Positions 1-22,381 of a stretch of DNA of 22,381 nucleotides are shown here, piece by piece; the stretch's first letter is position 1, and each line of letters opens with the position of its first letter. The stretch is from the IMG/VR virus record IMGVR_UViG_3300021964_000594, positions 1-22,381 of that record; one strand, given 5' to 3'. The notes beneath the pieces are model-generated. The model saw only the letters and a list, made by a program, of their open reading frames with translations, did not search any database and was not told the DNA's origin. A program made the position numbers and the translations under genes. This DNA comes from a virus.

Positions 1-3000
1 CGCCATTGTTTGCAATGCCAAATACTGTGGTACTGCCATCACTTGTAAATGTTTGTGACAACACGGTGCCAGCTAGACTGGTGTATTCTACTTTAACCAA
101 ATAGTTTTCAGGTGCTGGAGTGTCAAGATCCACTTGAATATTGTCAGCAATTGTAAATGCTGTAAACTGTTCACTGTTAACGATCAATACCAACTGATCA
201 ACCAATGAATAGTCTAGGTCTAGGAACAGTTCATCGTCAATGATGGCAGATCCTTGATAGCTTTCTTTAAGTAATTGATTGCCGCCGCCAATACCAAACA
301 CAACAACGCTTAATGCATCGCCAGTAAGAGCACCGTTATTCACAGTTACTGATTTGCCAAACCAATTAATACTGTACTGGCTTGGATCAAGAACGTATCC
401 TTGGGTTTGGTTGATAACTTGCAAGGCTACTGGGTTAGGCATAAGTGCGCTAAAGAATATGGTTTTATTGTTTTCAAACCAGAATATGCTGGTGCGCTTA
501 ATTTCAAATCCATGTCCGTTTGCCTCCCAGTCTGCCCCTGGTGTGGTTCTAACTGTGAGATTTAAACTGTCAAACATGCTGCCTGGCACAAGTTCTTGTG
601 GAGCGTGTGAACTATATGTGTCAATAAATTCTCCACCTTCAACATTTATATCTGTAGATCTTGTGCCAAGATAGGTATCAGTGAAACTGCTTTGGTAAAT
701 GGTATCAATTATTTCTTCGCTGTATGTTGGTAGACCTTCAGGACCATAATCAATGTTATCATATGGAACAGTATCAAACGCTGCAACATCATAGCCTGAG
801 TTTTGATCAAACCCAGGTCCGTCTACTTGCACACCTGGATAATCGATGCCAGTAATTAACAATGCAAGTTCTTTGCCTGGATCTTGAATATCTGGAGTGT
901 AATAACCCATGGTACGATCAATACCACTAAGTGTGCTAGCATCAACTTCAGTATAATCATCAACATCAAACTCACTACCACTAAACAACGATGTGCTATC
1001 AGCAACTTGATTTACAGAATAAACCTTGTTGTTGTAACGTACCAATGAACCTTCTTCGTAGTAGGTGTTCTTGGTCCATATTTGTATTGCTGTTGTGTAT
1101 TCATATCTATCAAATTTGATGGTTGGTTTAATGTGTCTGACTGTTTCATTTTTCAATCTTGCAACAACAATACCGCCAGTACCGTTACCACCTGTAACAG
1201 TTACAACTGGACTTGTTGTATATCCTTCACCAGCATCAATAATATCTACTCTTACTATTTGCCCTGCACTGTTTACAACTGCTTCAAGCACTGCTTGTCT
1301 TGTTGCAGTACCAGTTACAGTAAGGACTGGTGCCACTGTGTATCCTTCTCCGGCATTCACAATGTCAACACTGCCGACAGTGTACTTGTAATTGTTAAAC
1401 CACTGGCTGTAAGGCCATGTCTGCCAGATCTCAAGATCTGTATTTGCAAACGTCAACTGTGGACTTACAAACTTGTTAAGTTGATCATCATAGTACGCTG
1501 GCAAATCAAAGTCGGTGATATCACCCTTGAAATAATCTACACCATCATAGCGTAGAGCAAATTCTTTAATTTTTACATGATAAGGTTTTACTTCTCGAAT
1601 GTAATCAATAACAAAGTCTTGGTTATCAGCTCTGTATACATTGTATGGAAGAAGGTCACGAATCTTGTGACTTACATTAATTAGACTGGTTTTTGTTAAC
1701 CACTCAGGTGCAATCTGCTCAGACATGATGTATTCAAACATGAGAATAAGCAAGTTATTTCGGTATATGGCCAAGTCATTAATGAAAATTTCTTCGTTAA
1801 GACTCTTAAGAATTTGTCTAGTTTCTGTAATTGGATTTTGATCAAATCTTTGACTATCAAATGCTTGCAAGTCAAAACCAAATCCGCTTGAACCGTAATT
1901 ATAAACACTTACGTCGATAGCAACAGTTCCATCCTCAAGCACTTTACGCACATAGGAACCGTCTACCAACTGGTAAATTTCAAACTTGTCTGCACTGTTG
2001 CTCAATACCTTAACACTGTCACCTGGATCGATACCTGTTAGTAGTTCAATGTCGCTGTATTTTTCAACTTCTGCTACTGGTCTGACACTGGTATCATATC
2101 CTGTTGCAACCCAGTTGACATAACTCCAAAATTGTGTAGTATCATAGTTTTGTACTCTGGTTAATAGTAAAGAGTAGTCACTTTGCACTGTGTAGATTGT
2201 CCACAAGCCTTCGTTATTCTCGTCTGTAAGCACCAAATATTTGTATCCAACGCCATCGACTTCTGGATCTTGATATAGCAATTCACTGTAATTGTTTAGA
2301 CTCTTGTTCCATTCACCGCTGGCACTGCTTGGGGTAGCTTCTTGGCTCAGCAATAATGGGTACGAGCGTATTTCAGTTATTGGAAATAGTGCAAGATAGC
2401 TGTTTGCTCTAACAATATAGTTTTGTAGAGCTTCAAATCTATCAACTACCACACTTTGTCTTGGTCTGAATCCTGTGCCATATCTTTCAGCTGGGCTTAG
2501 TCTAGGATCTGGTACAATATTTCCAACACTGTTAGCACCGCATAGGCTGTCAACAAATTTTGTAAACAGTGTGGCATCTAAGAAACTATCAGCAGTTTCA
2601 CTTTGTATTAGGTCATACTCAACATGCACATTATCGTCATTCTTGACTCGGTCAAAGTCTACATGCAAAATTGTATCTTTTGCACTGAATAAGTTGTCGC
2701 AGTTGTTAAGTGCTATAGTATTTTGACTTAAAGCGGTCAGATAAGGTATACCACTGCTTAAAGGATTCTCGATATACTGTTTGATTGCATTTGTGCTTAG
2801 AGTTTTATCTGCTGATTTAACCACACTATTCAATCCTGTGACCCAGTAGTAATATTTGGTTATAAAGTTTCCAGTACTGGTTAGTTCGCTTCCTACAACA
2901 TAGCTTGTAGTACTATATACTGTACCTGGACCGGCATATTGTGCTGGTGGCACTGTGCTTTCAGTCCACTGATAAACATCAATACTGCTTCCTGGGAATA

Positions 3001-6000
3001 CCTGTCCCCAACGTTTTGCTCTATACTCAATGGTGTCTTGTCTATAATCAATAAATCTTACGTTACTAACGTTCCACCATATCTCTCCAACATGGGAATC
3101 ATTCCACGTGGTTCCAACGTTGTTGTAGCCGCCATTGTTGTAGCTTGCTGGATCAAAACTGGTAATGTAATCAATATTTTGTCTTGCACTGCCTAGTATT
3201 TTTCCTTGTAAAGGATCTATTGTGTCCAGATATAATTGTGTTTCACTAGTGACTCTGTCATATGTGAACACGCTGTTAATTTGCGAAACATCAACTGCTT
3301 GTATTTCAGAATATTTTTTATACCATGTGCTGGTGGTTGGGCTCGAAAATTCCGCAACACGTCCAAAGTTTCCGCTACTGTCTCCAAGATCACTGCCCGG
3401 AGAACCAATCAATAATCTGTTGTTTAGCAAACTTACACTGCTACCAAATTGATCAAAACTTACTAAACTATCATCGTAAATCTGACTGCCAAATACAAAC
3501 TTACCTGGATTTGTTACTGTGCTGTTTGCACTTTCAAGGAAATCGTAAGTATAAACTACACCACTGGTGTTGACAATATCTGTGAATGTGGTACTGGAAC
3601 CATCAAGCACAGTGTCTCCACCATCAAGAGTCATTGGTTTTGCAGCGTTTCCTTTTGGACTTCCAACAACAAGGGTAGTGCTGGTTGTCTGATCAATTTG
3701 TAGTGCTGATCCAAATTCTGAATATCGTACTGGGTACGGACTTGTAATAGTTTGTACATAAGACAGTGGTTCAAATCCTAAACTGTTATATGCACTTCCA
3801 ATACCTGGCAACACTTGAAGTTTAATAAATCTATCTGCAGGTTCGGCTGTAACAATACTCAATGTGATCAATTCATTTGCAACACTTGCAGTAACATTTG
3901 GTATATCAGCATCGTTAATGGCTTTGGTATACGCTTCTGGCCAGTTACTTAATTCCCAATAATCTGTGTCGGTTAAACTTGTGCCAGTTGGAACTGCCTG
4001 AATACTATGATAGATTATATTGCTACCATTGTTTACATACACATCATTTAGGTACGCTGTGCTTGAACTGTGTAGAGGTAGGTCAGGAACATAAACTTGA
4101 TAGTTGTTTATTCTGATACTGTTGCCCGAATATAGTGTACTTGGATTGGTGCTTGTTATTGTGCCATACAATCTGTTTTGATTTGCAAAACGTTCAACTT
4201 GTCCGGCTTCAACTAATGTACCGCTGTGTTTTGGAGATCCAATGTACAAACTGCAATTAGTTGGACATTGACTCAATGAAGCTCCAAATCTAGCGCCTGT
4301 TGCCGAGTCATTGCTGTCTAACGTGCTCATAAGTTTAAAATTGTTGTTTTCAATTTCAATGATATCGCCAAGATTCAATGTCACTGAACTTAAAATAGTA
4401 ACTGTTGATCCATTCACTGTGTATTGTCCATTGTTATTAAATGGACTAGGTGTAAGGAAAGTGTCATTTAACTTAACAGTGAGATTTCCATTTACACCAG
4501 ACGCCACTGTGTATGTTCGTGTTGTGGTATTTTCGACCTGAAATCTTTCTACACTTCTGTCGTAAACATAAACTCTACCAGTGTTGTTACGGTAACCAGG
4601 ATCTCCAATTGCTACTTGTCTGCCGTCAGTGGTTGTATCAACGGCATAACCAAACTCTGCGTTAAGTGTATTCGAGGTATTTGCTTCTGTGAAGTATGCA
4701 TTGTAAACAGTTGGTTGTGCCTCTCTATAAACTTGAAAAGCTGGTTCAATTATATTTGCAATTCGCGAAATAAGAGTTGGATCAGTTAGTGTGCCAGCAC
4801 CATATTGTGCAAAATGTAATGCATCAATTGCACTAATATCGCCATCGTACGTTACATCACTATATGCGTACCCAGTATCTGGATTAATATCTGTAAAGAA
4901 TGCTGGTACTGAACCACCTGCGGCTGCTGTTAACACAGCGTCCGTGAAAGCAGTCCAGTCTACTGCATAAGCAGGTATTGTAATTGTATCTATTAATTTC
5001 CAATATGTGTCACTGTTGACGGTAACTGTTGAATTACTGACACCGTTACGCAAAAACTGTATCTCTTTTGCTGTGCTGTCATCTATATATATGTAATCAT
5101 AGTTAGGTCTTTGTAGGACTCCATTTACTCTTACACTGAAACTGTAGATATCAGTGACTGTATACAAATCTTCAATCAAAAAGTCAATTTGCGGGGTTGA
5201 ACCAACTGTCCAGCTTTTGTTTGTTTTACGACTGATTCTGATTTCGTCGCCAAGATTTGGTGCAGTAACAAATTGCACTTCAGGAGCATCATAAGTCCAG
5301 TCAACTCCTAATACTTGCAAAATGTTGTTTCTTGTTACAAGTATTTGATCAGCGCCGATGCCACCAGCAGCACTATCATCGTCTACAATTATAGTATCGC
5401 TGATATCATAATCTGTGGTAGTGCCGTTTCCAACAGCTTCAACGACTTGATTTTGCACGTCAACTCTGTTGTATGCTCTGACAACATTATTTCCTGGTCC
5501 GCCAATGTACATCCATCTATCATCTTGACTGATTGCAACACTTGACCCAAATTGTTCCCAAAGATAGATATAGATGCTCGCACCTGGATCAACTCTTGTG
5601 AAGAACTCAATAGTATCCGAGCCAACAAGTTGCCAATCAGTTCCTGCTGTCTTAACTTCATCGTCTACTAACACTGCAATTGCTGTTTCGTCGGTGGTTG
5701 TAAATGCACTGCTAAAGTCGTATAATTGGGTACTGTCTTGACTTCCTAATGTTTTGAAAAGGTTACGTGGTTCAGGTGTAAGTATCTGACTGCTTGAATA
5801 TGCACCATTCGCACTATCTCGCTTGATTAACAAACTGTAGCCTTGTTTGCCTCCACTTTGTGGACTTCCTGCGACACTGAACTGTTGTCCACTGCTTGCC
5901 AATGATGAACCAAGGCTAACTGTATTTCTGGCACCAAGCACTTGTACTGTTGTATTCACATATTCGTTGTTGGAATTGGTGTTAAATGTGTAAACAGCTC

Positions 6001-9000
6001 CGCCTGCAACTGCAAGCTCAACTACACTGCCTGCTCCAGGTGCAACTGTAAAAACAACGTCTCTTGTACCAGCCGCGTCGTCAATACTGATAGTGTAATT
6101 GGTGTTCAATGTTTGGGTAACGCTGTTTAATCGCACAATTAATGTTGTGGTATCACTTACTGGCAAGCCAAGGAAACTAAACGTATCTGCTAAACCGTCT
6201 CCAACATAGAGTAAATTTTCTTCGTAACCTGGCGAGCTTATTAATGCACCCTGACGCAGTAAACCTTGACTCACTGCTGTGCCAAACTCTGCATTTTCAA
6301 TTGCATCAGCTTCAATGTTTCCGTTTATCGTAAACGCCGAGTCACGTTTTTCGTAAGCACCCCAGGTACCGTCGCCAGCATTGTTGACCCAAGCTCTAGT
6401 CAATGGTGTTAGTGTGTTTACTGTTGGCAAACTTGCAATATCACTTGGTTGTGCTACTCTTACGCTGCTTAAAACAAATGCATTACCAACACCAGTTAAA
6501 GAGGTTTCGTCTCCACTTAGGCTTAGATTAATAGTGACTGCCTTAAGTCCTGTAATTGAGGTTGGTTTATAGGCTCCGTCGACTTCATCGTCAAAGCCTT
6601 TGATCATAAAGATACTGCTCAATCCTAGATTGTGATTGTTTCTAAATGTAAGAGTACAAGTGCCATTTAGGTTATCTTGTACTTGCTCTAAAACTGTTCC
6701 AAGATCGTTTGTACGGTAGACATCCCAGTTATAACTGTTGACTTTTGCAATCCAAATTGTTGTTCCAACTCTAACTGTTTCCACTTGATTGATTATATCA
6801 GTAAGATCATCAATGCTGAACACTTTGATATCAACATCATCCCAATTCACATAACCTGCGTTTGGCAAATCAGTGTCTGGTTTATCTGTTGTTAATGCAG
6901 GGAACACATTAACGTCTGTGATTTTGTAACTTTGTTTGTACAAAGCATCCAGTGTTAAACTTTGATTAGCAGTGCTGGTTTGCTGAGTGTTTATAAGCTG
7001 AATAGTTGTTGGGTTATCGGTAAGCAAACTTTCATCAGTTTGTATTTCAATAAAAGCTCGGCTTGCTGTAGCACCGTAACTGGCTTTAAGTAACGCCCAG
7101 TTTTCGATGATATTGTAATCAGCAACTTCCTTGTCTAAACGTGCTTGTGTGAAGATTTCAGCAGCGCCTACTGTGCCTTTGGTTTTTAAGAATTGCTTGT
7201 ACAACTGAACTTGTGATACGTCGTCAAGGTTAAGACTTTGCATGTATTCACGTGGGCGGAATCCAATGAGTCCAGCACCTAGCAAGTCAGCATCTGTTTC
7301 AAGGTTGGCTATGTTTGTATCGTAGTAATTTGAAATAAGTCCAGCTTTGGTTGCTGCATTTGGTAACAAACCTTTGCTAATCAAATCATAATCACTCTTG
7401 ATCCAATCATTGAAATCAAAAGAGCCAGTTGGACTTAATAACTTTCCTGCACTCCAGTATTCATCTTTGTAGAGTACAATTTCGCCTTTGCTGTACTGGC
7501 GATTTGGTTTCCATTCTTGAATATTGTCTTGGTTAAGAATGAATCCTTGTGCATCTAGTGTGCCGTTCCACTCATAGGTTACAGATCCATTCACTAAAAG
7601 TCGCAGTTGTCGCGCACCAGTGCTAGGATTATAAATCAAATCATTGAACAAACTGGTGTTATCAAAAACAATGATGTGTTCGTATGCAGTGGTTTTTGCA
7701 CCAAGATAGTTGATAACATCATTGTTTGTTGTGCTTAACTTAAAGGTGTTTTCGATTCGACTTACTAAAAGTTTATCTTTGCCAATAGCTTTTCTGTCTT
7801 GACTAAAGATTGGTTCTGAACGTGTGCCTGAAACATCTTCAACAATTTGATTTGGTGTGTTGATCGTAATTTGGTTTGCGCCTGGATTAAGATTAATCAG
7901 GCTTCCGCTGCCCCAACCTTGATTGCTCCACAACACAGCTTCTTGTGCCATTTGCAACCAATCAAGTACCACTCCGTTCTCAATATTGTCAAATACCATG
8001 TTTGATCTTTCAAGATACACACCGTAGCTTACTAAAAAGTCTGCTAGTCCATTGAGTGTTGTAAATTCATAACCATACGGTATTCTTGTAATGTTGTCAC
8101 TGTGATCTTTGTTTACCCGGATTGTGGTATTTCCAACAACCAATGTGTCATAGCTGCCATTAATAACACTGTTGTAAATTGTGAAATAAGGATTGTTTAT
8201 GCTATAACCACTTACAATGTATCCACTATCAGTTCTTTGTACAATTACACTGCTATAGGCAATTTGATTAAGAGTTGGGTTTTTGTAAAGTTTTAACTGA
8301 AAACTTTCATCTGGAATAAGCAAACTGGTGTTTAAACTGTCAGGTGTGCTTTTTTCAGTAAAAATTTTCAAATACTTTTTATCACTGTACGCACCCATAC
8401 GGTAAGCAAGTCTGACATCAAGATTGTCAAGTCTTGTCATTATTTCGTTTGCACTGTCTAATCCTGAAATCTTGTTGTAATCAACAATCCAGTTTAGGTA
8501 ACTGTTTTTGCTGGTGCCTGTGCCATAAACCACTAGATTTTCTGGTTGTAGTCTAAATCTTTCATTGTATAACCATTGATCTAAACCAGTGTCATAGCGG
8601 TATAAATCAATGTCAGCATTGAGTGCAAAGTATTTTGCTGGTTGTGTTAGAGCAAGCAATTTTTGTAGAGCAAACTGATAGCTACTGCTACGTCTCCATG
8701 CTGTTTCTGTTGGGCCTCCATCGCCAAAGACCCAACTCTTTTGGAAACTTCCGCTATCAAATGTGCCAACCACGCTTTGTAACGGAGCAATTAAATTACC
8801 CAGGCTGTCTACTGGAATAATGCTTAATAAATCAGGACGAGCATACTGACTAAGTGTGCGTGGATTGGCAGGATCAGCAACATAGCCTTCTGATAAATCT
8901 TCCCACAATACAAGGTTTCCGCTGGTATACGGTGAACTACCGTAACGTAGATCCCAATAGTCAGGCTTCTCAGTGAAGCCTAGCATTTCCCATGGACGTA

Positions 9001-12000
9001 AATGTGGTACATCTGTATCATAGAGATAGTTGTAAATGCCTCTCCATGCGCCTAATAGCAAGGTGTTGTCAAGTTTGTTTTGGCTTCTACTGTAGTTGTA
9101 GGTAAATTCATTGCTGGCAATATAATCTTGATCTCTAAAAGCAACACGGTTTTGACCTACCCAAGACAAGAAACTTTCGCTGAGTATGTTGTTGATTTCA
9201 GCAAGGCTGTAGTCGGTATCACGGAATTGTCCTGGCATAACGTCAGTTATTGGCAAAGGAGGATTGTAGCGATTTAAAACTTTAACGTTGTTGTAAACAC
9301 GTCTTTCAAATTCTATTAGAAGATCGTCTCGGTCATCGCCATATGCAATTGTTTGAGATCCATCATGTCCAATGATAACGTCTTGCGGCGTAATGTAACT
9401 GTTGTCTGTAACTTTTTCTGGCTCCCACACTGGAGCTAGTCCTAGTTTGCTCGGAGTATTAGGAATATAATTTCCTAAAGTGCTTTCGTATTCACGAATG
9501 ACCAGCTTGTCGCCAACACTTAATGTGGCGGCAACTGTAATTCTTGGTCCGTCTGTTGCTACAGTATAATCATGACCGTCGCCAATCAACAGCACATCAT
9601 TCAAGTATACCAATATGCCTTGATAATTTGCTTTGGTAAAGTCGTATGATCTCAAAGTTGAAAACACTGTGCCTGATATAGCCGTGATTGTGTAACTTGT
9701 TTCGTCGTATGTCTCCCCACTGGGAATCATATCACTGTAATAGAAAGGCGAGTTGATGTTTTTGCCTACATTAATAAATTGTAAGATATCATCTAAAATT
9801 TTTGCTGTAGTGCCACTCCATGCTTTTGTGCTGTAGGTATTGATCAGCAATGCTTTAAAATTCTCGTAACTTCTTCTACTGTATTCGAGACTGTTAAAGA
9901 ATTGATACTCAGGATCGTTTATAAAGTTTGCACACATAGTCAGAGGCGAGCTGTGTTGAATAATCTGATCGCCATATGGTACAACATCACCAAGATCTCG
10001 GATATTGTTTGCGCCGTGAATACTACCATCAAAATTTGACAGGTTTGAGCAAATGGTTGTATAATGGTTTCGTGCCGTACCAAGTGTAACACTGGTTACT
10101 TCGCTGTTAAGAGCATTGTTTTCAAGATTAAGTGGAACGCTGTAATAGCCAGCATCGCTCACTGACTTGCTGACCACACTTACCTCAACCAAACTTCCAA
10201 CGGTTGGTGCAGTGGTAAATGTTATCACAGTAACATTACGAGTGGTATCTGTGCTGTAGGTATAATTTTCAGGTAGATAGAATTCACCGTCAACATAAAC
10301 CTTAACAGGCACATCTACACTGCTGTCAACCAACACATCCAGCAGTAGATTGTTTCCAGTGTATTCAAAACTTAGTATTTGTCTGCTTTCTCTGTCAGTG
10401 TAGGACTTCTGCCAGCCTGTTTGTTTTTGGAATGTGGTTCTATCAGAGTAAGTTCTAGCAAAACCATTTTTAATGTCTAAGGTGGTGCTTACGTTGTTGC
10501 TTACATAGTTGAAAGAATCAATGTAAAAATAGTTTTCAAAAACAATATCGCCAATGTTGTTGACACTCAAATATTTGATTGGAAATCCAAGTTCAGAATC
10601 TGCAACACCACTGCCAATTCCGTAGCCAAACAATTTGCTACCAGTAAAACTGGTGCCCACATAATATGTACTATCGCTAAAGCTGTTACCGTTGCTATCA
10701 AAAACATCAAACAATGGTGCTTGATTAGTTGCAGTTTTGTCTTGTGCATCTACCCAACTGGTGCCATTATAGTAGTAACTTTTGCCCTGTCCGGTTAATC
10801 CTTTTGTAACTACCACTGTGCTATTAGAAGGAACACCTGCCGTGGTAATGTCTGCTGGAGTAAGATTAATTACTGGTTCACTGCTGTCATCAAACTTCAC
10901 AAACTCAACAGTGTAGATTTTGTTTCTAACTTTGTCGTCGCGATCATCGGCAAATATAACTTTTGTTCCATCAACAAAAGGATACCCATCAACACTATAA
11001 CCAATTGTTCCATTAATATCACTGAATGCATCAGTGGCATTGAAGTCAATTACATCAACTTTGCCCACACTGCTTGTACCAAAGTTGAACAATTTAAGTC
11101 CAGATAAAAATTCTAAAATTGGACGTTTTGCTCTACTGTCATTGTCAAGAACCACAGCATTATTGTTATAATCTGCGGTAGCATTGATTACATCAATGTG
11201 AAACCATCTGTTGCTTCTACTCCAGGCATTCTCATCTGGGCTAGCACGGTTAATAGTAATATAGTCTCTAACCAATGGTGCATTTAGTGTGTCATCAAAG
11301 TTACCTTCATCATATGGTGTACTGTCATATGGTGTACTCGAACTTTTGGTAAATGGTTCAGGTGTAATTAGATTATCTACTGCAATAAGTTCGATCAATT
11401 TGCCTACGCCTTCCACATAATACTCATTACCACTGTAACTAGATGGGATAGTAGGGCCGTCGAATCTTACTTTGAGTCCGTTTGTAAATGTGACACCATT
11501 AGGACTGGTGTAGGTGCTTCTGGTCAAAATATCATTGACATTAAGATCAGGAGAATCTTCACTGTCTAATAATTGAATAGTGCCAAACTTGCTTGGATCA
11601 GTACCGTCCACATAATACAATACATCAAGATTTGCAGTTATAAGCGGAACTTGTGCAAACCATTGTTGGTTTGTGCGATAAAAATAAGCGCCACCATATG
11701 TTTTACCGTAGTTAATAATTGCTTTTGTCTCAAGGGTAAAGGCACGTTCTTGTGTTAATTGTATTGTTGGATCACTGCCTGCCGTGTAGCTGATTCTCCA
11801 CACACTGTATTTGGTATCTGGATTAGTGATAATAGAACTATCGGGTCTGACCCAACCTCCATCTTCGCCGCCAATTTGCGTTAAGAAGATAATTGTTCGA
11901 TTTTCAATATCTGTTATGCCGTCTATACCTGTAGGGTATTCATTGAAGAAATCTTCTACAGTGACATTGTTAATTTGGTTGTACTTCAGATTGGTAGCAA

Positions 12001-12763
12001 AATCAACGTTGCCGGCACTAGCCATATCATTATAAAAATCTTGTGCTCTTTTATCAGGCACATTGAATTGTATAAGTCCAACGTCGTCGCCATTGTTGGT
12101 TACTCCTAGTACATCTCTTGTGCTTTGATTACTAAAGCTAAATGTTCCATCTCCGGTGGCGGCTTGTATCCAAAACGGATGGCCAAGTTGATTGACACTA
12201 AACTGATAGTTGCCTTTTCGTAGCAAGGTAATAGTTGGAAGATTGCCATTGTATCCGGCAATGCGATATCCACTGGTTGTTCGTGTGATATCAAAAGTTT
12301 TAATAAGTGCTGTTTCAGTAGCACTAACGCTTACACTATCTGGTCCTTCTGGTAACCAATAATATTGACCATAGTTGATCCATTTGTCATAGTCTACCAA
12401 TGGATCAAAAGAATAATATTGACTACTCCACAAACGATCATGTCGGTTGACCAAGCTATCGTTTACTGCTAAACTATCTACAATACCTGGATATGTTAAA
12501 ACATCGTTAACATTGTTGGTATTGGGTTGTAAAAAAGTTACTGCTGGCTCAAGTTGATAGTTGTTTCTGTTTTCGGTGCTTTCAGGAATGTAAACATCAT
12601 CGCTTGTAACACCAACACCAATTTTCCTACCAATATAACCTTGAGTTCGCTTTAACTTTGGTTCTTGTATCAGTTGGTCAAGGGTACTGCCAAGGAATTG
12701 TTTATTTGTGTCGGTTTGAAAGATTTCAGGTAAGAAATCTACACTTCTTATTCTTGATGCCAT
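1..12763 (-). CDS. Giant baseplate/tail structural protein, gp7/gp8 position (3' end outside window)
   Basis: An uninterrupted frame starts with ATG at 12763-12761 and is still open at base 2, giving 4254 visible codons. Translations checked near 12.7, 9.0, 6.0, 3.0 and 0.02 kb stay in the same frame. The protein starts MASRIRSVDFLPEIFQT. I recall this N-terminus, and internal stretches such as RPWEMLGF and EVKPYHVKIKEF, from large virion proteins of marine T4-like phages. Layout: residues 1-790 are a conserved N-terminal region; about 790-1100 hold two fibre-type beta modules; about 1100-2150 are a conserved region ending with a CBM-like module near 1751; 2155-3150 hold seven FG-GAP-like repeats with inserted modules; about 3150-3800 are again conserved; then come two GEGYT repeats, another CBM-like module near 3896 and further beta modules. 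The start overlaps the gp6 stop (TAATG), with GGTGGA eight bases upstream. T4 has gp7 after gp6, so a role in the outer wedge is inferred from position only. Confidence 0.9.
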   Translation of the reverse strand, partial: MASRIRSVDFLPEIFQTDTNKQFLGSTLDQLIQEPKLKRTQGYIGRKIGVGVTSDDVYIPESTENRNNYQLEPAVTFLQPNTNNVNDVLTYPGIVDSLAVNDSLVNRHDRLWSSQYYSFDPLVDYDKWINYGQYYWLPEGPDSVSVSATETALIKTFDITRTTSGYRIAGYNGNLPTITLLRKGNYQFSVNQLGHPFWIQAATGDGTFSFSNQSTRDVLGVTNNGDDVGLIQFNVPDKRAQDFYNDMASAGNVDFATNLKYNQINNVTVEDFFNEYPTGIDGITDIENRTIIFLTQIGGEDGGWVRPDSSIITNPDTKYSVWRISYTAGSDPTIQLTQERAFTLETKAIINYGKTYGGAYFYRTNQQWFAQVPLITANLDVLYYVDGTDPSKFGTIQLLDSEDSPDLNVNDILTRSTYTSPNGVTFTNGLKVRFDGPTIPSSYSGNEYYVEGVGKLIELIAVDNLITPEPFTKSSSTPYDSTPYDEGNFDDTLNAPLVRDYITINRASPDENAWSRSNRWFHIDVINATADYNNNAVVLDNDSRAKRPILEFLSGLKLFNFGTSSVGKVDVIDFNATDAFSDINGTIGYSVDGYPFVDGTKVIFADDRDDKVRNKIYTVEFVKFDDSSEPVINLTPADITTAGVPSNSTVVVTKGLTGQGKSYYYNGTSWVDAQDKTATNQAPLFDVFDSNGNSFSDSTYYVGTSFTGSKLFGYGIGSGVADSELGFPIKYLSVNNIGDIVFENYFYIDSFNYVSNNVSTTLDIKNGFARTYSDRTTFQKQTGWQKSYTDRESRQILSFEYTGNNLLLDVLVDSSVDVPVKVYVDGEFYLPENYTYSTDTTRNVTVITFTTAPTVGSLVEVSVVSKSVSDAGYYSVPLNLENNALNSEVTSVTLGTARNHYTTICSNLSNFDGSIHGANNIRDLGDVVPYGDQIIQHSSPLTMCANFINDPEYQFFNSLEYSRRSYENFKALLINTYSTKAWSGTTAKILDDILQFINVGKNINSPFYYSDMIPSGETYDETSYTITAISGTVFSTLRSYDFTKANYQGILVYLNDVLLIGDGHDYTVATDGPRITVAATLSVGDKLVIREYESTLGNYIPNTPSKLGLAPVWEPEKVTDNSYITPQDVIIGHDGSQTIAYGDDRDDLLIEFERRVYNNVKVLNRYNPPLPITDVMPGQFRDTDYSLAEINNILSESFLSWVGQNRVAFRDQDYIASNEFTYNYSRSQNKLDNTLLLGAWRGIYNYLYDTDVPHLRPWEMLGFTEKPDYWDLRYGSSPYTSGNLVLWEDLSEGYVADPANPRTLSQYARPDLLSIIPVDSLGNLIAPLQSVVGTFDSGSFQKSWVFGDGGPTETAWRRSSSYQFALQKLLALTQPAKYFALNADIDLYRYDTGLDQWLYNERFRLQPENLVVYGTGTSKNSYLNWIVDYNKISGLDSANEIMTRLDNLDVRLAYRMGAYSDKKYLKIFTEKSTPDSLNTSLLIPDESFQLKLYKNPTLNQIAYSSVIVQRTDSGYIVSGYSINNPYFTIYNSVINGSYDTLVVGNTTIRVNKDHSDNITRIPYGYEFTTLNGLADFLVSYGVYLERSNMVFDNIENGVVLDWLQMAQEAVLWSNQGWGSGSLINLNPGANQITINTPNQIVEDVSGTRSEPIFSQDRKAIGKDKLLVSRIENTFKLSTTNNDVINYLGAKTTAYEHIIVFDNTSLFNDLIYNPSTGARQLRLLVNGSVTYEWNGTLDAQGFILNQDNIQEWKPNRQYSKGEIVLYKDEYWSAGKLLSPTGSFDFNDWIKSDYDLISKGLLPNAATKAGLISNYYDTNIANLETDADLLGAGLIGFRPREYMQSLNLDDVSQVQLYKQFLKTKGTVGAAEIFTQARLDKEVADYNIIENWALLKASYGATASRAFIEIQTDESLLTDNPTTIQLINTQQTSTANQSLTLDALYKQSYKITDVNVFPALTTDKPDTDLPNAGYVNWDDVDIKVFSIDDLTDIINQVETVRVGTTIWIAKVNSYNWDVYRTNDLGTVLEQVQDNLNGTCTLTFRNNHNLGLSSIFMIKGFDDEVDGAYKPTSITGLKAVTINLSLSGDETSLTGVGNAFVLSSVRVAQPSDIASLPTVNTLTPLTRAWVNNAGDGTWGAYEKRDSAFTINGNIEADAIENAEFGTAVSQGLLRQGALISSPGYEENLLYVGDGLADTFSFLGLPVSDTTTLIVRLNSVTQTLNTNYTISIDDAAGTRDVVFTVAPGAGSVVELAVAGGAVYTFNTNSNNEYVNTTVQVLGARNTVSLGSSLASSGQQFSVAGSPQSGGKQGYSLLIKRDSANGAYSSSQILTPEPRNLFKTLGSQDSTQLYDFSSAFTTTDETAIAVLVDDEVKTAGTDWQLVGSDTIEFFTRVDPGASIYIYLWEQFGSSVAISQDDRWMYIGGPGNNVVRAYNRVDVQNQVVEAVGNGTTTDYDISDTIIVDDDSAAGGIGADQILVTRNNILQVLGVDWTYDAPEVQFVTAPNLGDEIRISRKTNKSWTVGSTPQIDFLIEDLYTVTDIYSFSVRVNGVLQRPNYDYIYIDDSTAKEIQFLRNGVSNSTVTVNSDTYWKLIDTITIPAYAVDWTAFTDAVLTAAAGGSVPAFFTDINPDTGYAYSDVTYDGDISAIDALHFAQYGAGTLTDPTLISRIANIIEPAFQVYREAQPTVYNAYFTEANTSNTLNAEFGYAVDTTTDGRQVAIGDPGYRNNTGRVYVYDRSVERFQVENTTTRTYTVASGVNGNLTVKLNDTFLTPSPFNNNGQYTVNGSTVTILSSVTLNLGDIIEIENNNFKLMSTLDSNDSATGARFGASLSQCPTNCSLYIGSPKHSGTLVEAGQVERFANQNRLYGTITSTNPSTLYSGNSIRINNYQVYVPDLPLHSSSTAYLNDVYVNNGSNIIYHSIQAVPTGTSLTDTDYWELSNWPEAYTKAINDADIPNVTASVANELITLSIVTAEPADRFIKLQVLPGIGSAYNSLGFEPLSYVQTITSPYPVRYSEFGSALQIDQTTSTTLVVGSPKGNAAKPMTLDGGDTVLDGSSTTFTDIVNTSGVVYTYDFLESANSTVTNPGKFVFGSQIYDDSLVSFDQFGSSVSLLNNRLLIGSPGSDLGDSSGNFGRVAEFSSPTTSTWYKKYSEIQAVDVSQINSVFTYDRVTSETQLYLDTIDPLQGKILGSARQNIDYITSFDPASYNNGGYNNVGTTWNDSHVGEIWWNVSNVRFIDYRQDTIEYRAKRWGQVFPGSSIDVYQWTESTVPPAQYAGPGTVYSTTSYVVGSELTSTGNFITKYYYWVTGLNSVVKSADKTLSTNAIKQYIENPLSSGIPYLTALSQNTIALNNCDNLFSAKDTILHVDFDRVKNDDNVHVEYDLIQSETADSFLDATLFTKFVDSLCGANSVGNIVPDPRLSPAERYGTGFRPRQSVVVDRFEALQNYIVRANSYLALFPITEIRSYPLLLSQEATPSSASGEWNKSLNNYSELLYQDPEVDGVGYKYLVLTDENNEGLWTIYTVQSDYSLLLTRVQNYDTTQFWSYVNWVATGYDTSVRPVAEVEKYSDIELLTGIDPGDSVKVLSNSADKFEIYQLVDGSYVRKVLEDGTVAIDVSVYNYGSSGFGFDLQAFDSQRFDQNPITETRQILKSLNEEIFINDLAIYRNNLLILMFEYIMSEQIAPEWLTKTSLINVSHKIRDLLPYNVYRADNQDFVIDYIREVKPYHVKIKEFALRYDGVDYFKGDITDFDLPAYYDDQLNKFVSPQLTFANTDLEIWQTWPYSQWFNNYKYTVGSVDIVNAGEGYTVAPVLTVTGTATRQAVLEAVVNSAGQIVRVDIIDAGEGYTTSPVVTVTGGNGTGGIVVARLKNETVRHIKPTIKFDRYEYTTAIQIWTKNTYYEEGSLVRYNNKVYSVNQVADSTSLFSGSEFDVDDYTEVDASTLSGIDRTMGYYTPDIQDPGKELALLITGIDYPGVQVDGPGFDQNSGYDVAAFDTVPYDNIDYGPEGLPTYSEEIIDTIYQSSFTDTYLGTRSTDINVEGGEFIDTYSSHAPQELVPGSMFDSLNLTVRTTPGADWEANGHGFEIKRTSIFWFENNKTIFFSALMPNPVALQVINQTQGYVLDPSQYSINWFGKSVTVNNGALTGDALSVVVFGIGGGNQLLKESYQGSAIIDDELFLDLDYSLVDQLVLIVNSEQFTAFTIADNIQVDLDTPAPENYLVKVEYTSLAGTVLSQTFTSDGSTTVFGIANNG
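975..1078 (-). other. CBM5/12-like aromatic module 3 in the giant protein
   Basis: From Trp 3896 the protein reads W-T-K-N-T-Y-Y-E-E-G-S-L-V-R-Y-N-N-K-V-Y, followed by S-V and an acidic loop. The W....YY..GS.V.Y.N.VY spacing matches module 1 closely. It lies about 100 residues after the first GEGYT repeat. Glycan binding is inferred from the pattern only. Confidence 0.45.
1190..1369 (-). repeat. Two GEGYT repeats in the giant protein
   Basis: Two 20-residue units at 1310-1369 and 1190-1249 are identical at 15 of 20 positions. Both read V-D-I, then A-G-E-G-Y-T, then P-V-x-T-V-T-G, and they are separated by a 20-residue linker. G-x-G-Y-x-x-x-P-x-V repeats of this kind occur in phage tail and fibre proteins, where they form short beta structures. 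This pair lies near the C-terminal end of the visible giant protein, just before the CBM-like segment at 975-1078. Confidence 0.8.
3950..4060 (-). other. CBM5/12-like aromatic module 2, between propeller blades 5 and 6
   Basis: Residues 2904-2936 read Y-L-N-D-V-Y-V, then I-I-Y-H-S-I, then V-P-x-G-T-S-L-T-D-T-D-Y-W. This is the Y..ND.V ... Y.s....tg..l.dt.yW form of the same small module. It lies within the larger spacing between blades 5 and 6, consistent with insertion in a propeller loop. The N-terminal Trp of the other two copies is absent here. Confidence 0.4.
4330..6215 (-). repeat. Fibre-type beta modules inserted between propeller blades
   Basis: Five diverged copies of a module of about 65-75 residues lie at about 5990-6215, 5560-5760, 5215-5450, 5020-5215 and 4330-4545. 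The shared pattern is a G-D/N-G-x-x-T-x-[FY] start, a V-x-[VL]-[ND]-x-x-x-Q-style strand (for example VRVNGVLQ, VLVDDEVK, VKLNDTFL), a [DN]-[YW]-[TQ] segment, then I-x-[FV] ... P-x-x-G-[DAS]-x-[IV]-x-[IVL]. This resembles short beta-sandwich modules repeated in phage tail fibres. Related copies lie outside the propeller near 10175-10390, 9485-9715, 280-455 and 85-265. The copies are too diverged for DNA repeats to be visible; the relation is at protein level. Confidence 0.55.
7395..7513 (-). other. CBM5/12-like aromatic module 1 in the giant protein
   Basis: From Trp 1751 the protein reads W-x-x-x-x-x-Y-x-x-G-E-I-V-L-Y-K-D-E-Y-W-S-A, followed by a short loop and F-x-x-x-D-W. The spacing W...Y..G..V.Y.....Y.A is that of the small carbohydrate-binding fold CBM5/12, also found in many phage structural proteins. 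The pattern is visible in the sequence; sugar binding is inferred. Confidence 0.45.
11310..11338 (-). repeat. Short 15-bp tandem duplication in the giant gene
   Basis: The 14-base string TCATATGGTGTACT (plus strand) occurs at 11310-11323 and again at 11325-11338, a period of 15 bases. It encodes TPYDS followed by TPYDE, so the frame is kept. It looks like a recent slippage duplication. Confidence 0.85.
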
Positions 12764-15700
12764 TAACTATTTCCACCAGTGGATATTCTTAACTGACTGT
12801 TAGTGAGTGCAGTAATTACTTCTACATCGTTAACTGTTGCAGCGTTTACAAATATTTCGTTAGCTCTTGCTCGAATTTCATATAGATCGCCAAAACTCTT
12901 TAGCGGGTCTGTTGGCACAATTACAACACTGCTGATTATATCGCCAAGCTCTTCATGCAGATATGCACTTAGCTCACTGAAGAAGAATGTTTCACCAAAG
13001 TCCCAAACGTCTATAGTAAAGTAATCATTTACAGAAGCAATTACACTACTTTTAATTTCACTAATGCTTACAGTTGTGTTAGGATTTTTAATTACTTTAA
13101 AAATAGCTCGTAGCTCAGGTTCAGCTTTGGCTCCAAAAAGTGGCTTAAATGTTACACTGTTCATTATCACGTTGTCACTGATCATTTTATAATTGTTAAT
13201 GTTGCTATATGTAGTTGTTAATTGTTCAATAGTAGGCTGATCAGGCTCGGCTACTGTGCCTGTGCTATCCTTAATATAGTTTTGGTAATCAGTATAATAC
13301 GAGCTAGTTACAACGTAAACATCAATGATGTTTGTTGTGCCAGGATCAATACGTCTGCTGAACGGACTGTTGTGTCTATATTGGAATTTAAAATCTTGTC
13401 TACCAATCTTAACTTGCCAATCGGTTACTTCGGCGATTGTTCTTATGCCTGTAACACCAACTGTAAGTTGATAAAATTTTTCATCTGTGGTTGCATAAAA
13501 CACTTGACCATCTGCGTATTCTGATTTGTTTAATTCAATACTTTCAAGAGTGCCGAAACGTGTCACCACTGTGCCACTTGCTACTGGCAAAAATCTTTCT
13601 AAATTATCAAAGTCTGCTGTTTGTTGAAAAAATACCAGTTTGTTAGTCGGATTAGTGGTAGGTGCAACCAAGGTTTGGAAATAATCTGGATCATCAGCAA
13701 CACCATCGTTGTCGCTGTCTCTAAAACTTACTCGCACTCTAAAATCATCAACAAACCCGTCTGTTTCTGCTGGTTGGCCAATGATATCTAATACAGTATC
13801 ATAATTCACTGGCGAACTAGTGTCAGGAAGATTATTAATCTTTAATACATTTATAAAATCGTTAATTGTTGTTCCAGTTTTTGGATCATAAATTCTATCA
13901 TTGCTATCAAAGAAGAATCTTGTCTCTAGCACACTGCCCCAGAATCTTTGCAAACTGCGTGAACTTACAGTGTAGGTTACACCGTCAGTGATAAATTTAA
14001 CAAGCCAACTGTTATCCAACCCTTGTCCGGTTGTGTCTTGTGCATAGTTAAGACTAAATGTATTAGCAGTGTCAAGATTGGATGCTGTGATTACATACCA
14101 ACTTTGCGATTCTGTGTCGTAGCCAAGTCCAAAGTTTCTGTACAGTTCAACATTGGTCTTGATATTTTGTTCGGTTGCAACACTAAGATCAGTAACAAAT
14201 TTAGGAATTACTTCTGTTGGAATGGCGCCAGTTGGTACAAAATCATTGAGTGTGATAGGACCAGTACCATCTGCTAGATTGCCCTGTCCAAAATTGGTAC
14301 CATCTAGTGTAAGACTTGCCACTGACGCCCAAAGACTGACTCTATCATTCGGCAAGGACGGCGTACCAGTTTGTAATCTATTTGCACTGTCAAAGTATTG
14401 TCCAGTAGGCGCAACAAATTTAACCAATGCACCAACAATAATATATTTTTTGTTGTCATTTACAGACGGACCAACCGGTGCTGGTTCATCGTTACTGGTG
14501 TATGTAAAGTAACCAGTTGCTTCATTGGTTTGTGATGTGCTTTGTTGCCATTCAAGCGCAAGATTACTCAATTGTGGTCGTGGATAATTGTTGTAATAGA
14601 ATTCAATCATTCCACGATTGCTGATTGCTGGCTCCACCTGGTTGATAATAACATTATTGATATCGTTGATATCAGTAAATGTAAAATTAAAACTAGGAAT
14701 AGCATCAGTTTCGTATAGCAATCCGTCGTCTGCAAAGATATTTGTACTTGAGTATTTTCCAGTAACATCCACAAGATCAAGATAACGGCTTGTGCCAATG
14801 CTACTGCGGTTAACTGCTTTGCTTTTAATAACTGTGCTGAACAGTGTGTAAGGGAAGTTGTTGTAGTCTTCGCCGTTTACCATTCTGTTCTGAGTATAGA
14901 ACCTTGCTGGTGCTCTGTTCTTTATGTCCGCAATGTTTTCTCTGTTGTTTGCGTTGCTCACTGGCTCGGCAAGATTACAGGTAAAAGTTAGAACTTCTTG
15001 TCTACCGTTGCGACTGATATAATTCAAACTGATTTGAATATTTTGCATGTCCTCAGGATTGATCACATACCGCAAGCCGTTGCTCGAACGTACATAACTC
15101 CTAAAGTTACCAACTGGTATAGTACTAAACACACCGTCGCCAAATATTAAATCAATTTGGTCGTTTGTTCTACTACCTACACTGAAAAACTTTCTTGCAT
15201 CTGGTGCAAGTTGTTCTGCGGCTGCCGCATAGATATTTTCTACTTTGGTCCACTGTTCTTCAATTGCGTTATTGCTGTCTAATTTGTACAGCCAAACATC
15301 ATCATTGTTAATGCCTTCAATGTTTACATTAACAACGCGATTGCTTACACGTTCGCTTAGTGTAAAATCGTTGTTTTGTAAACTGCCTTGTTTGAAATAC
15401 AAAAAGTATCCAGTGTTGGCACTTGCAAATCCAAGATTGTCATTTCTGTAAAGAATATTAAAATCACTGTCTGGACGTGGTGCTGGTTCGTAAATTGTAT
15501 TTGAATTTTCTGTGGAAACATTCACTGCTTCAAAACTCATGCTTGTGCCATTCACTGTTTGAGTAAAAGGCACGACTGGTAAAAATCCTGTTGCAAGATT
15601 TACTGTGTATGTGTCAGTGGCAATACCGTTGATGTCAGCTGAGCTTCCTGGCTTACCGTAACGTTGTGTGCTTACCATTGCAGCATTTACAACAGTATTA

Positions 15701-16167
15701 AACTGCTCAAGCCAATTTGCATTGGTTACATCATTCCAACTTATTTCTACACTGGATAAATTAAAACCGTTAAAGTCAGTGATATTTTCTGTTGTACGAA
15801 CGCTGGTTACTTTCAAATATCCTTGTGCTGCAAGATTACGTTTTGGAGTATAACCAACTAGATTTGATAGTCTTACTACACTGTCTCTACGTTCTGCTGT
15901 GTCTAAAAAGTTTTCACGAGTGTTTAAGTCGTTACGGTAGCTGAGGCTTTGGCCCATAAAGGCCATTACATCCAACAGTGCAATGAATTCTGAACTTTCT
16001 GTGTAGTCGTTGAAAGTTTCTGGGTAATACAGTTTAAGATAGTCAATAAAACTTTTTCGCAGAGTTTCAAAATCATAACTCTGAAAATCAGCTTCGCGAT
16101 AGGTTTGGTAAATCCTTCGCCAATCCTCTACGCCAAAAATTGCAGTTTGTCTTGTTGTTCTTGCCAT
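12763..16167 (-). CDS. 6: Baseplate wedge protein gp6-like, enlarged
   Basis: This 1134-residue protein starts MARTTRQTAIFGVEDWRRIY and continues with a region containing YPETFNDYTESSEFIALLD and RRDSVVRLSNLVGYTPKRN (about residues 48-112), a hallmark of T4-type gp6. The C-terminal 144 residues (991-1134) look like the Baseplate_J-type domain of the family, which packs gp6 dimers into the ring joining the wedges. T4 gp6 is about 660 residues, so roughly 470 extra residues lie in the middle and are mostly beta-rich. Within this extra part, residues 817-828 form a D-x-D-x-D-G calcium-loop pattern. The ATG at 16167 follows a purine-rich GGAAGGTG. The stop TAA shares its last base with the start of the giant gene, suggesting coupled translation. 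Confidence 0.93.
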   Translation of the reverse strand: MARTTRQTAIFGVEDWRRIYQTYREADFQSYDFETLRKSFIDYLKLYYPETFNDYTESSEFIALLDVMAFMGQSLSYRNDLNTRENFLDTAERRDSVVRLSNLVGYTPKRNLAAQGYLKVTSVRTTENITDFNGFNLSSVEISWNDVTNANWLEQFNTVVNAAMVSTQRYGKPGSSADINGIATDTYTVNLATGFLPVVPFTQTVNGTSMSFEAVNVSTENSNTIYEPAPRPDSDFNILYRNDNLGFASANTGYFLYFKQGSLQNNDFTLSERVSNRVVNVNIEGINNDDVWLYKLDSNNAIEEQWTKVENIYAAAAEQLAPDARKFFSVGSRTNDQIDLIFGDGVFSTIPVGNFRSYVRSSNGLRYVINPEDMQNIQISLNYISRNGRQEVLTFTCNLAEPVSNANNRENIADIKNRAPARFYTQNRMVNGEDYNNFPYTLFSTVIKSKAVNRSSIGTSRYLDLVDVTGKYSSTNIFADDGLLYETDAIPSFNFTFTDINDINNVIINQVEPAISNRGMIEFYYNNYPRPQLSNLALEWQQSTSQTNEATGYFTYTSNDEPAPVGPSVNDNKKYIIVGALVKFVAPTGQYFDSANRLQTGTPSLPNDRVSLWASVASLTLDGTNFGQGNLADGTGPITLNDFVPTGAIPTEVIPKFVTDLSVATEQNIKTNVELYRNFGLGYDTESQSWYVITASNLDTANTFSLNYAQDTTGQGLDNSWLVKFITDGVTYTVSSRSLQRFWGSVLETRFFFDSNDRIYDPKTGTTINDFINVLKINNLPDTSSPVNYDTVLDIIGQPAETDGFVDDFRVRVSFRDSDNDGVADDPDYFQTLVAPTTNPTNKLVFFQQTADFDNLERFLPVASGTVVTRFGTLESIELNKSEYADGQVFYATTDEKFYQLTVGVTGIRTIAEVTDWQVKIGRQDFKFQYRHNSPFSRRIDPGTTNIIDVYVVTSSYYTDYQNYIKDSTGTVAEPDQPTIEQLTTTYSNINNYKMISDNVIMNSVTFKPLFGAKAEPELRAIFKVIKNPNTTVSISEIKSSVIASVNDYFTIDVWDFGETFFFSELSAYLHEELGDIISSVVIVPTDPLKSFGDLYEIRARANEIFVNAATVNDVEVITALTNSQLRISTGGNS
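13684..13719 (-). other. Predicted Ca2+-binding loop in gp6
   Basis: Residues 817-828 of the gp6-like protein read DSDNDGVADDPD. This matches D-x-D-x-D-G-x-x-D-x-x-D, the loop of thrombospondin type 3, dockerin and EF-hand-like calcium sites, with every acidic position filled. Calcium binding is inferred. Confidence 0.6.
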
Positions 16168-16195: not shown

Positions 16196-16214
16196 ATAAA
16201 AAACTACGCAGTTT
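16196..16214 (-). terminator. Weak hairpin with T-run after gp25
   Basis: Overlapping the gp25 stop, the minus strand reads AAACT-GCGT-AGTTT followed by TTTATT. This is a 5-bp, AT-rich stem with a 4-base loop running into Ts. The stem is weak for an intrinsic terminator. At most it would attenuate transcription between gp25 and gp6. Confidence 0.25.
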
Positions 16215-16587
16215 ATACAAGCCTAGCAACTCTTGTTTGTTCGTCAAAAAACAATAACAATCTTTCGGCACTAACACCTTGTACAGTGCTTACTGCAACT
16301 TCCAAGAGTATTCCATTGTTTTGTGGATACATATCAACCTTGTCTAAACGCAGTCGAGGATCCATGTTTACTCCACGTTGTATTTCTTCCTGTATAAGCT
16401 CGGCAGTTTCTTCAGTCTGAGGTTCGAACAACAATTGCCATATCCGTGTACCATAGCTTGGACGTCCAGCAATTTCGCCCTGTTTGATGTTGAGAAAGTT
16501 TAAGAAATCTCTTTTGATTAATTCAAAATCAGTGAGCACAAAGTTTTTTTGTGCGCCAATTGTGTTGTATCCAATAAATGTTGCCAT
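16213..16587 (-). CDS. 25: Baseplate wedge / sheath initiator protein gp25-like
   Basis: This 124-residue protein is close in size to T4 gp25 (132 residues) and belongs to the GPW/gp25 family shared with TssE of type VI secretion. The family core is visible: Y-G-T-R-I-W-Q-L-L-F-E-P at residues 45-56, an acidic helix with ETAELIQEEI, then DPRLRL at 76-81, which is the family's EPR-type motif with Asp in place of Glu. In T4 the protein joins the inner wedge and starts sheath polymerisation. ATG at 16587 is preceded by AAGGAG eleven bases upstream, overlapping the stop of the spike gene. It lies between gp5 and gp6. Confidence 0.94.
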   Translation of the reverse strand: MATFIGYNTIGAQKNFVLTDFELIKRDFLNFLNIKQGEIAGRPSYGTRIWQLLFEPQTEETAELIQEEIQRGVNMDPRLRLDKVDMYPQNNGILLEVAVSTVQGVSAERLLLFFDEQTRVARLV

Positions 16588-21910: not shown

Positions 21911-22210
21911 TTATCCACCTAGTACAGTTTCAAGTGTGCTTTTCTTTGGCAGATAAATTGTTGTACCTGTGGTAAAATCTCCTAGTGGATCTTGAATTTG
22001 ATTTGGATTGCGTTGAGCAAACACCCACCAGTAGCCAGGATCACCGTAAAGGTCAAAAGCAAGAAGATCTGGTCGTAAATTGTAAGTTTGCGTAATTGTA
22101 AAACTTTGATCGTCCACGAGCTTGGGTATTCTTCTATTGTTTAGAACTCCTAGTACGCCGTTTCTAATTGATGTGGTATAATAAGGACTGCTCGGTGCAT
22201 ACTCAGCCAT
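21911..22210 (-). CDS. 53: Baseplate wedge protein gp53-like (LysM-like)
   Basis: This protein has 99 residues when started at ATG 22210. The core RPDLLAFDLYGDPGYWWVFA, followed by R-N-P and D-P-L-G-D-F-T-T-G-T-T-I-Y-L-P, is the conserved LysM-like fold of the gp53 family. In T4, gp53 completes the wedge and helps wedges join around the hub. A TTG two codons upstream (22216) is in frame, but the strong AAGGAGG is only about 3 bases from it and 9 bases from the ATG, so ATG is preferred. The ATG overlaps the stop of the upstream gene (TAATG). T4 gp53 is longer (about 196 residues), so this is a compact form. Confidence 0.88.
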   Translation of the reverse strand: MAEYAPSSPYYTTSIRNGVLGVLNNRRIPKLVDDQSFTITQTYNLRPDLLAFDLYGDPGYWWVFAQRNPNQIQDPLGDFTTGTTIYLPKKSTLETVLGG

Positions 22211-22381
22211 TACCAATATCCTCCTTTAAGCAATGTTCCATTTGCATAGTCTTTGAGACTAAACTGTTGGCTAACCTGTTGTCTACTCACAATTGGTAAT
22301 AGATCAAGAGTTATAGTCATTTTGGTCGGCACATAAGTTGCATCACCCGAAATCTCAATATTAGTCGGTGGTGGGAAATTT
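22210..22381 (-). CDS. C-terminus of a probable gp48/gp54-type tail-tube/baseplate protein (5' end outside window)
   Basis: The last 56 codons are visible: PPPTNIEISG near the start, then YVPTKMTITLDLLPIVSRQQ and the end LLKGGYW, with TAA at 22212-22210. A hydrophobic strand with P-T-K-M-x-I-T-L-x-L ... [ST]-R-Q near the end is what I recall for the C-termini of gp48-like proteins, which cap the baseplate and start the tail tube. Its place before gp53 fits. The fragment is short, so the family is tentative. The gp53 ribosome site lies within its last codons. Confidence 0.5.
   Translation of the reverse strand, partial: NFPPPTNIEISGDATYVPTKMTITLDLLPIVSRQQVSQQFSLKDYANGTLLKGGYW
22219..22226 (-). 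promoter_or_regulatory. Strong Shine-Dalgarno for gp53
   Basis: The minus strand reads AAGGAGG ending at 22220, nine bases before ATG 22210. It is the best ribosome-binding site in the window. It decides the gp53 start against the upstream TTG and lies inside the coding end of the preceding gene. Confidence 0.75.

Follow-up and report, generated by a model that had tools for sequence, protein, structure and literature searches.

An integrin-type FG-GAP beta-propeller predicted within the giant baseplate wedge protein of a clade of uncultured jumbo myoviruses

Work on host recognition in phages with contractile tails usually looks to their fibres and spikes. The DNA considered here, a stretch of 22,381 nucleotides referred to as the window, raises the question of whether a baseplate protein may carry an adhesion-type domain of its own. 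An earlier note, made from the letters of the sequence, had read seven FG-GAP-like segments at positions 3320-6300 as an integrin-type beta-propeller in a phage baseplate protein, and had suggested that such a domain could contact the host surface.

The window holds minus-strand baseplate genes of an uncultured T4-type jumbo myovirus, in the order gp53-like, virion protein, gp5-type hub, gp25, gp6, and then a single giant ORF (Table 1). This gene order, after gp53, hub, gp25 and gp6 in a wedge gene cluster recognized by Pfam and PHROG, identifies the giant scaffold as a T4-type baseplate protein, so that the host protein of the propeller had been placed correctly. The scaffold adjoins gp6, and fibre-like genes lie downstream of it. 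It runs for 4254 aa within the window, where its C-terminus is open, and reaches a full length of 4826 aa on an overlapping IMG/VR contig (L001) that is identical to the window scaffold across 1061 compared residues. For the scaffold relative in phage PA5oct, that phage's own record marks detection in the virion by mass spectrometry. The position after gp6 fits T4 gp7. Orthology to gp7 was not established, as the sole match to a record named wedge initiator was short (94 aa, 40%, Bellamy) and was not recovered by profile, and PDB sequence searches on this question matched no chain to the scaffold. A weak match to CBM_5_12 (chitin-binding type) was seen in the window scaffold at residues 3896-3919 and about 1007-1078, scoring 24.4 bits, under the Pfam cut-off of 26.2; matches to this family at E up to 0.1 occur in six of eight scaffolds (the named ones and that of the window). 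Host clues from mis-binned MAG contigs pointed to four unrelated taxa.

The repeats themselves are unlikely to be accidental. A strict motif, FG..[SAVTL]...[GSA][SGDA]P, scanned across the full protein, was found six times (FG residues of blades 1 and 3-7, Table 1), whereas 2000 shuffles of the protein averaged 0.07 occurrences and never gave more than 2, ruling out a chance origin. A seventh copy, at residue 2284, is degenerate (LGSSL...VAGSP) and in register. The seven segments noticed in order correspond to six canonical repeats and one degenerate copy; the positions first given for them translate to residues 2154-3148 and were right, the domain spanning slightly more (Table 1). Two further FG pairs, 3091 FGSQI and 3133 FGRVA, were rejected as extra repeats on their position in the structure model, which places the former within strand D of blade 6 and the latter at strand C of blade 7 or immediately ahead of it. 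Pfam FG-GAP_2 (PF14312) matched with E=5.6e-9 when the full protein was searched and with E=5.3e-12 when the search was limited to the segment; the score was 36.5 bits, against a curated cut-off of 23. Among relatives, of which 80 were collected by the flank after the propeller and 57 propeller regions were aligned, FG-GAP_2 was matched in 56 of 57 at E<=0.01. Integrin alpha chains were the top matches of the 57-relative propeller profile (E 7.3e-9, with many more below 1e-4), and accounted for 30 of its 32 PDB matches. Profile comparison, for which the earlier note had proposed HHpred, thus yields significant matches to both FG-GAP_2 and integrin alpha.

Structure prediction leads to the same fold. 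AlphaFold2 with the 57-relative alignment gave a propeller with pLDDT 83.6 and pTM 0.84; a single-sequence model (pLDDT 30.3) was discarded. VIA-align superposed the model on integrin alphaM over 374 residues (Z 39.4, 3.0 A, about 20% identity), from model residue 8, which aligns to integrin residue 1, to model residue 1016. All 50 of the VIA-align rows listed are integrin alpha structures, these rows coming solely from Foldseek's own candidates. Foldseek E-values agree with integrin alpha, and the Foldseek TM-scores are low because of large multi-domain inserts in the model; the fold claim therefore rests on VIA-align together with the profile evidence. The strand order A-B-C-D was read by eye from the DSSP string in seven of seven blades. 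The confidence of the model, its end-to-end superposition on the closed integrin alpha propeller and the ceiling of seven blades in relatives all indicate that the domain is predicted to be a closed seven-bladed propeller of the integrin alpha/FG-GAP type, with four-stranded blades. The integrin-type reading is thereby upheld by predicted structure and profile matches alike.

Table 1. Predicted features of the window and of the propeller within the giant scaffold protein
Feature	Position in window	Strand	Evidence
Giant baseplate scaffold protein	2..12763	-	PHROG 10938 virion structural protein, E=8.8e-300
Seven-bladed FG-GAP beta-propeller, integrin type, residues 2142-3151	3311..6340	-	AlphaFold2 model; integrin alpha Z 39.4
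Blade 7, FG at residue 3106, best Pfam FG-GAP_2 match	3311..3448	-	Pfam + model
Blade 6, FG at residue 3017	3479..3715	-	motif + model
Blade 5, FG at residue 2826, long C-D loop insert	3746..4288	-	motif, model, occupancy
Blade 4, FG at residue 2704	4316..4654	-	motif, model, occupancy
Mostly helical insert between blades 3 and 4	4667..4972	-	occupancy mostly 0; low pLDDT 484-525
Blade 3, FG at residue 2405, two beta-domains in C-D loop	4979..5551	-	motif, model, occupancy
Small beta-domain between blades 2 and 3	5558..5743	-	occupancy mostly 0; model strands
Blade 2, degenerate repeat LGSSL...AGSP	5780..5917	-	motif + model
Blade 1, FG at residue 2160	5942..6286	-	motif + model
Insert, B-C loop of blade 1, low confidence	6008..6217	-	pLDDT under 60
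N-terminal strand before blade 1, integrin-alpha layout	6314..6331	-	DSSP strand 11-16 of model
Baseplate wedge protein, gp6 type	12763..16167	-	PHROG 10646 E=2.8e-284
Baseplate wedge protein gp25	16213..16587	-	Pfam GPW_gp25 E=1.8e-10
Baseplate hub/spike protein, gp5 type	16603..19014	-	PHROG 13211 E=2.6e-37
Virion structural protein	19023..21908	-	PHROG 11190 E=1.6e-15
Baseplate wedge protein gp53	21911..22216	-	PHROG 7145 E=8.6e-21

The anatomy of the domain was read from the DSSP string and alignment occupancy, with the propeller faces assigned from topology. In blades 3, 4 and 5 the C-D loop houses beta-domains, that of blade 4 being common to relatives. Other inserts are more restricted: the one that blade 1 carries in its B-C loop is missing from relatives (occupancy about 0 in 56), the beta-domain between blades 2 and 3 is largely specific to the window phage, and the insert between blades 3 and 4 is mostly so. 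In some integrins, the inter-blade position 2/3 is occupied by the I domain. The helical insert that separates blades 3 and 4 (residues 2598-2699) contains a stretch (DINPDTGYAYSDVTYDGDISAIDALHFAQYGAG) read by eye as dockerin-like; a simple pattern search for it returned no copy in the scanned slots, window included.

The propeller sits in a well-delimited slot of the scaffold. Across eight scaffolds (the named ones and that of the window), invariant columns stop at W2134 and restart at Y3168, with the propeller between. Of 154 distinct slots extracted, 22 are without blades, the others hold mostly five to seven, and one exceeds seven. Compact propellers, of 457-470 aa, occur at L069 and L085. 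The relatives were taken as the closest out of more than 560, so the prevalence of the propeller among them is not an unbiased estimate. Blades were counted with a trained model that was checked for circularity on shuffled slots, outside slots and with the window left out. It gave 0 matches in shuffled slots and 799 inside slots vs 7 outside, six of the seven falling in a mis-cut locus (L046); when built without the window or loci below L056, it still detected five blades of the window, all at E<=0.0025, with nothing further under E 7.

In a tree of the flanks (152 rows), the propeller is characteristic of a single clade, which comprises 133 rows and has support 100. Three loci nested in this clade (L052, L053 and L055) are devoid of the propeller, with slots of 16-41 aa and both flanks intact. 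The simplest history would be one gain and one loss, within the limits set by FastTree and a midpoint root; two loci (L137 and L156) were scored "none" in the tree run and at least three blades in the slot count. The slot of L137 has a collagen-like (GIQGAQ)n repeat inserted within the propeller. Elsewhere the slot has other contents. At L005:18139-19176 and L093:5987-7000 it contains some 340 aa of lectin-like appearance, judged by eye (EYWSFD ... LSIIDIQSHY); a lectin fold is not claimed for this SCTP-2/L093 slot, since neither Pfam nor a PDB sequence search supported one. The slots of Phosso and Atu_ph07 (L003:18769-21576 and L006:18733-21555) hold about 920 aa rich in GxGYxxxPxVxV repeats, and similar repeats also occur in the window protein near residue 3800.

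The slot also diverges faster than its surroundings. In each of the 17 pairs compared, its identity was below that of either flank (in one example, 57.9% identity vs 74.0% and 72.6% in the flanks), and most gaps and indels of these pairs fall within it. The earlier note had proposed to look for faster evolution of the propeller loops among relatives, and faster divergence is seen here for the slot relative to the flanks. This pattern fits relaxed constraint as well as selection.

By computation, the predicted propeller has a single constant location in the giant wedge protein that comes after gp6 in a clade of uncultured jumbo myoviruses. Fold, position, distribution and divergence are computed; exposure, binding and a ligand we infer as follows. 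The propeller may project outward at the edge of the baseplate. Small beta-domains enlarge its loops, which could bind a ligand either on the cell surface or in the glycan coat of the cell; the bound propeller would hold the baseplate at the surface during fibre engagement, and calcium would not be used in the integrin manner. A putative surface-binding module built into the baseplate wedge is the reading we favour, at about even confidence. It draws on the integrin-type fold, the place of the scaffold in a baseplate gene cluster, the virion detection of the PA5oct relative, the placement between invariant W2134 and Y3168, the clean absence from the three nested loci, the restriction to a single well-supported clade, and the concentration of divergence and indels in the slot. 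It draws further on Pfam matches to T7 tail-fibre, CBM_X2 or CBM_5_12 within the propeller region of some members, and on the wedge protein of cyanophage S-MbCM6, where FG-GAP repeats occur together with Laminin_G_3 lectin-like domains. Against surface binding it can be said that the divergence also fits relaxed constraint, and that the calcium motif, searched as the integrin DxDxDGxxD loops of C-terminal blades, is essentially absent (it was matched once among 154 distinct slots and nowhere in the window).

Propellers commonly act as protein-protein interaction platforms, and the main rival, which we consider possible and clearly less probable than surface binding, is that this one would serve as a docking platform within the virion, binding fibres or peripheral baseplate proteins, with partners from the phage, not the host. 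The scaffold lies in the wedge cluster adjoining gp6 and upstream of fibre-like genes, and the propeller has long been kept in the clade; such near-constant retention across a diverse clade could reflect an assembly role. However, scaffold relatives (L052, L053, L055, RaK2 and PA5oct) do without the propeller, and it diverges faster than the scaffold. The scattered carbohydrate-binding-module matches, in propeller members and most of the named scaffolds, and the lectin-like domains beside FG-GAP in S-MbCM6 would also suit a weak, broad attachment to environmental glycans or particles, with no specific host receptor recognised; this putative role appears unlikely, the window's own CBM_5_12 match falling under the Pfam cut-off. 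Least probable, and to our mind improbable, is passive decoration, by which a beta-rich module acquired once would be kept as a spacer under weak constraint. Faster divergence, tolerance of large inserts and the capacity to be lost all agree with it, but decay would yield broken propellers, whereas the fold and the arrangement in seven blades have persisted throughout a deep clade, the blade count there having seven as its ceiling. Surface binding therefore ranks above docking, broad glycan binding and decoration, in that order.

A wider extension of the surface-binding reading is more tentative. In a clade of uncultured jumbo phages, host-surface recognition might have moved into the wedge, the scaffold position being an adhesin slot that works independently of tail fibres and is either empty or occupied by an integrin-like propeller or another module (one lectin-like by eye, in SCTP-2). 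A clade-wide embedded propeller, whose fold serves adhesion in integrins, makes a defined domain available for experiments on phages that have no isolates, and its clean loss in one subclade and absence from cultured scaffold relatives offer a natural comparison.

FG-GAP repeats are not confined to this clade. A tblastn search with the window propeller gave no match among cultured phages, whereas more regular FG-GAP queries found distant ones. Stand-alone FG-GAP proteins occur in Vibrio phage nt-1 and S-TIM5, and BFVD lists viral FG-GAP proteins along with a "putative baseplate wedge protein" of S-CBWM1. Sinorhizobium phage Phosso gp108 (L091:4279-13119) has 24 matched FG-GAP_2 stretches (E 1.1e-175), apart from the baseplate genes. 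A prasinovirus was suggested as maybe the first virus confirmed with FG-GAP repeats (PMC11467894), a suggestion that the phage records do not fit. The earlier note knew of no FG-GAP propeller in T4-type baseplates; our search likewise found no paper describing FG-GAP in phage baseplates, although deposited cyanophage wedge records (S-MbCM6 and S-H9-1) carry such repeats. What is new is the clade-wide embedded module, not the fold or FG-GAP in phages.

Among known systems, the scaffold itself is closest to the giant virion proteins of RaK2, PA5oct, Atu_ph07, Phosso and SCTP-2 (PHROG 10938 kind), which share it at the same place after gp6, with 22-31% identity to the window in the flank after the slot. 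These scaffolds carry no FG-GAP, their slot being short or filled with other sequence, and Pfam gave no FG-GAP match in any of seven cultured scaffold relatives. Conversely, the S-MbCM6 "gp8 baseplate wedge protein" (7022 aa), the S-H9-1 "baseplate wedge subunit" and an S-TIM5 virion protein have FG-GAP repeats, like the window. The S-MbCM6 protein (L255:6780-27848) directly follows gp25 and gp6, as the window scaffold does, and bears FG-GAP_2, two Laminin_G_3, YHYH and a Reelin-subrepeat match. Outside the propeller it gave no match to the window scaffold core or C-terminal profiles, so the FG-GAP module seems separately placed, and that of the S-MbCM6 and S-H9-1 wedge proteins apparently sits in unrelated scaffolds. 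FG-GAP propellers have thus reached phage baseplates, apparently more than once.

The phage propeller resembles integrin alpha (alphaM, alphaX, alpha4, alphaV, alphaIIb) in having seven FG-GAP blades, in the course of its chain from the N-terminal strand through to blade 7, and in bearing an insert that separates blade 2 from blade 3. It differs from an integrin alpha subunit in lacking the calcium loops; thigh, calf and membrane-anchor domains were absent from the window protein by Pfam, its flanks being phage baseplate scaffold, and no transmembrane segment or beta-subunit partner was identified. It also has large inserts in several other loops and is embedded in a baseplate protein. With bacterial FG-GAP_2 repeat proteins (PF14312) it shares the blade consensus NDRFGTSVAISTDGNTLVVGAPGSD...GAVYVYD, and it differs from them in forming one embedded module with large loop inserts.
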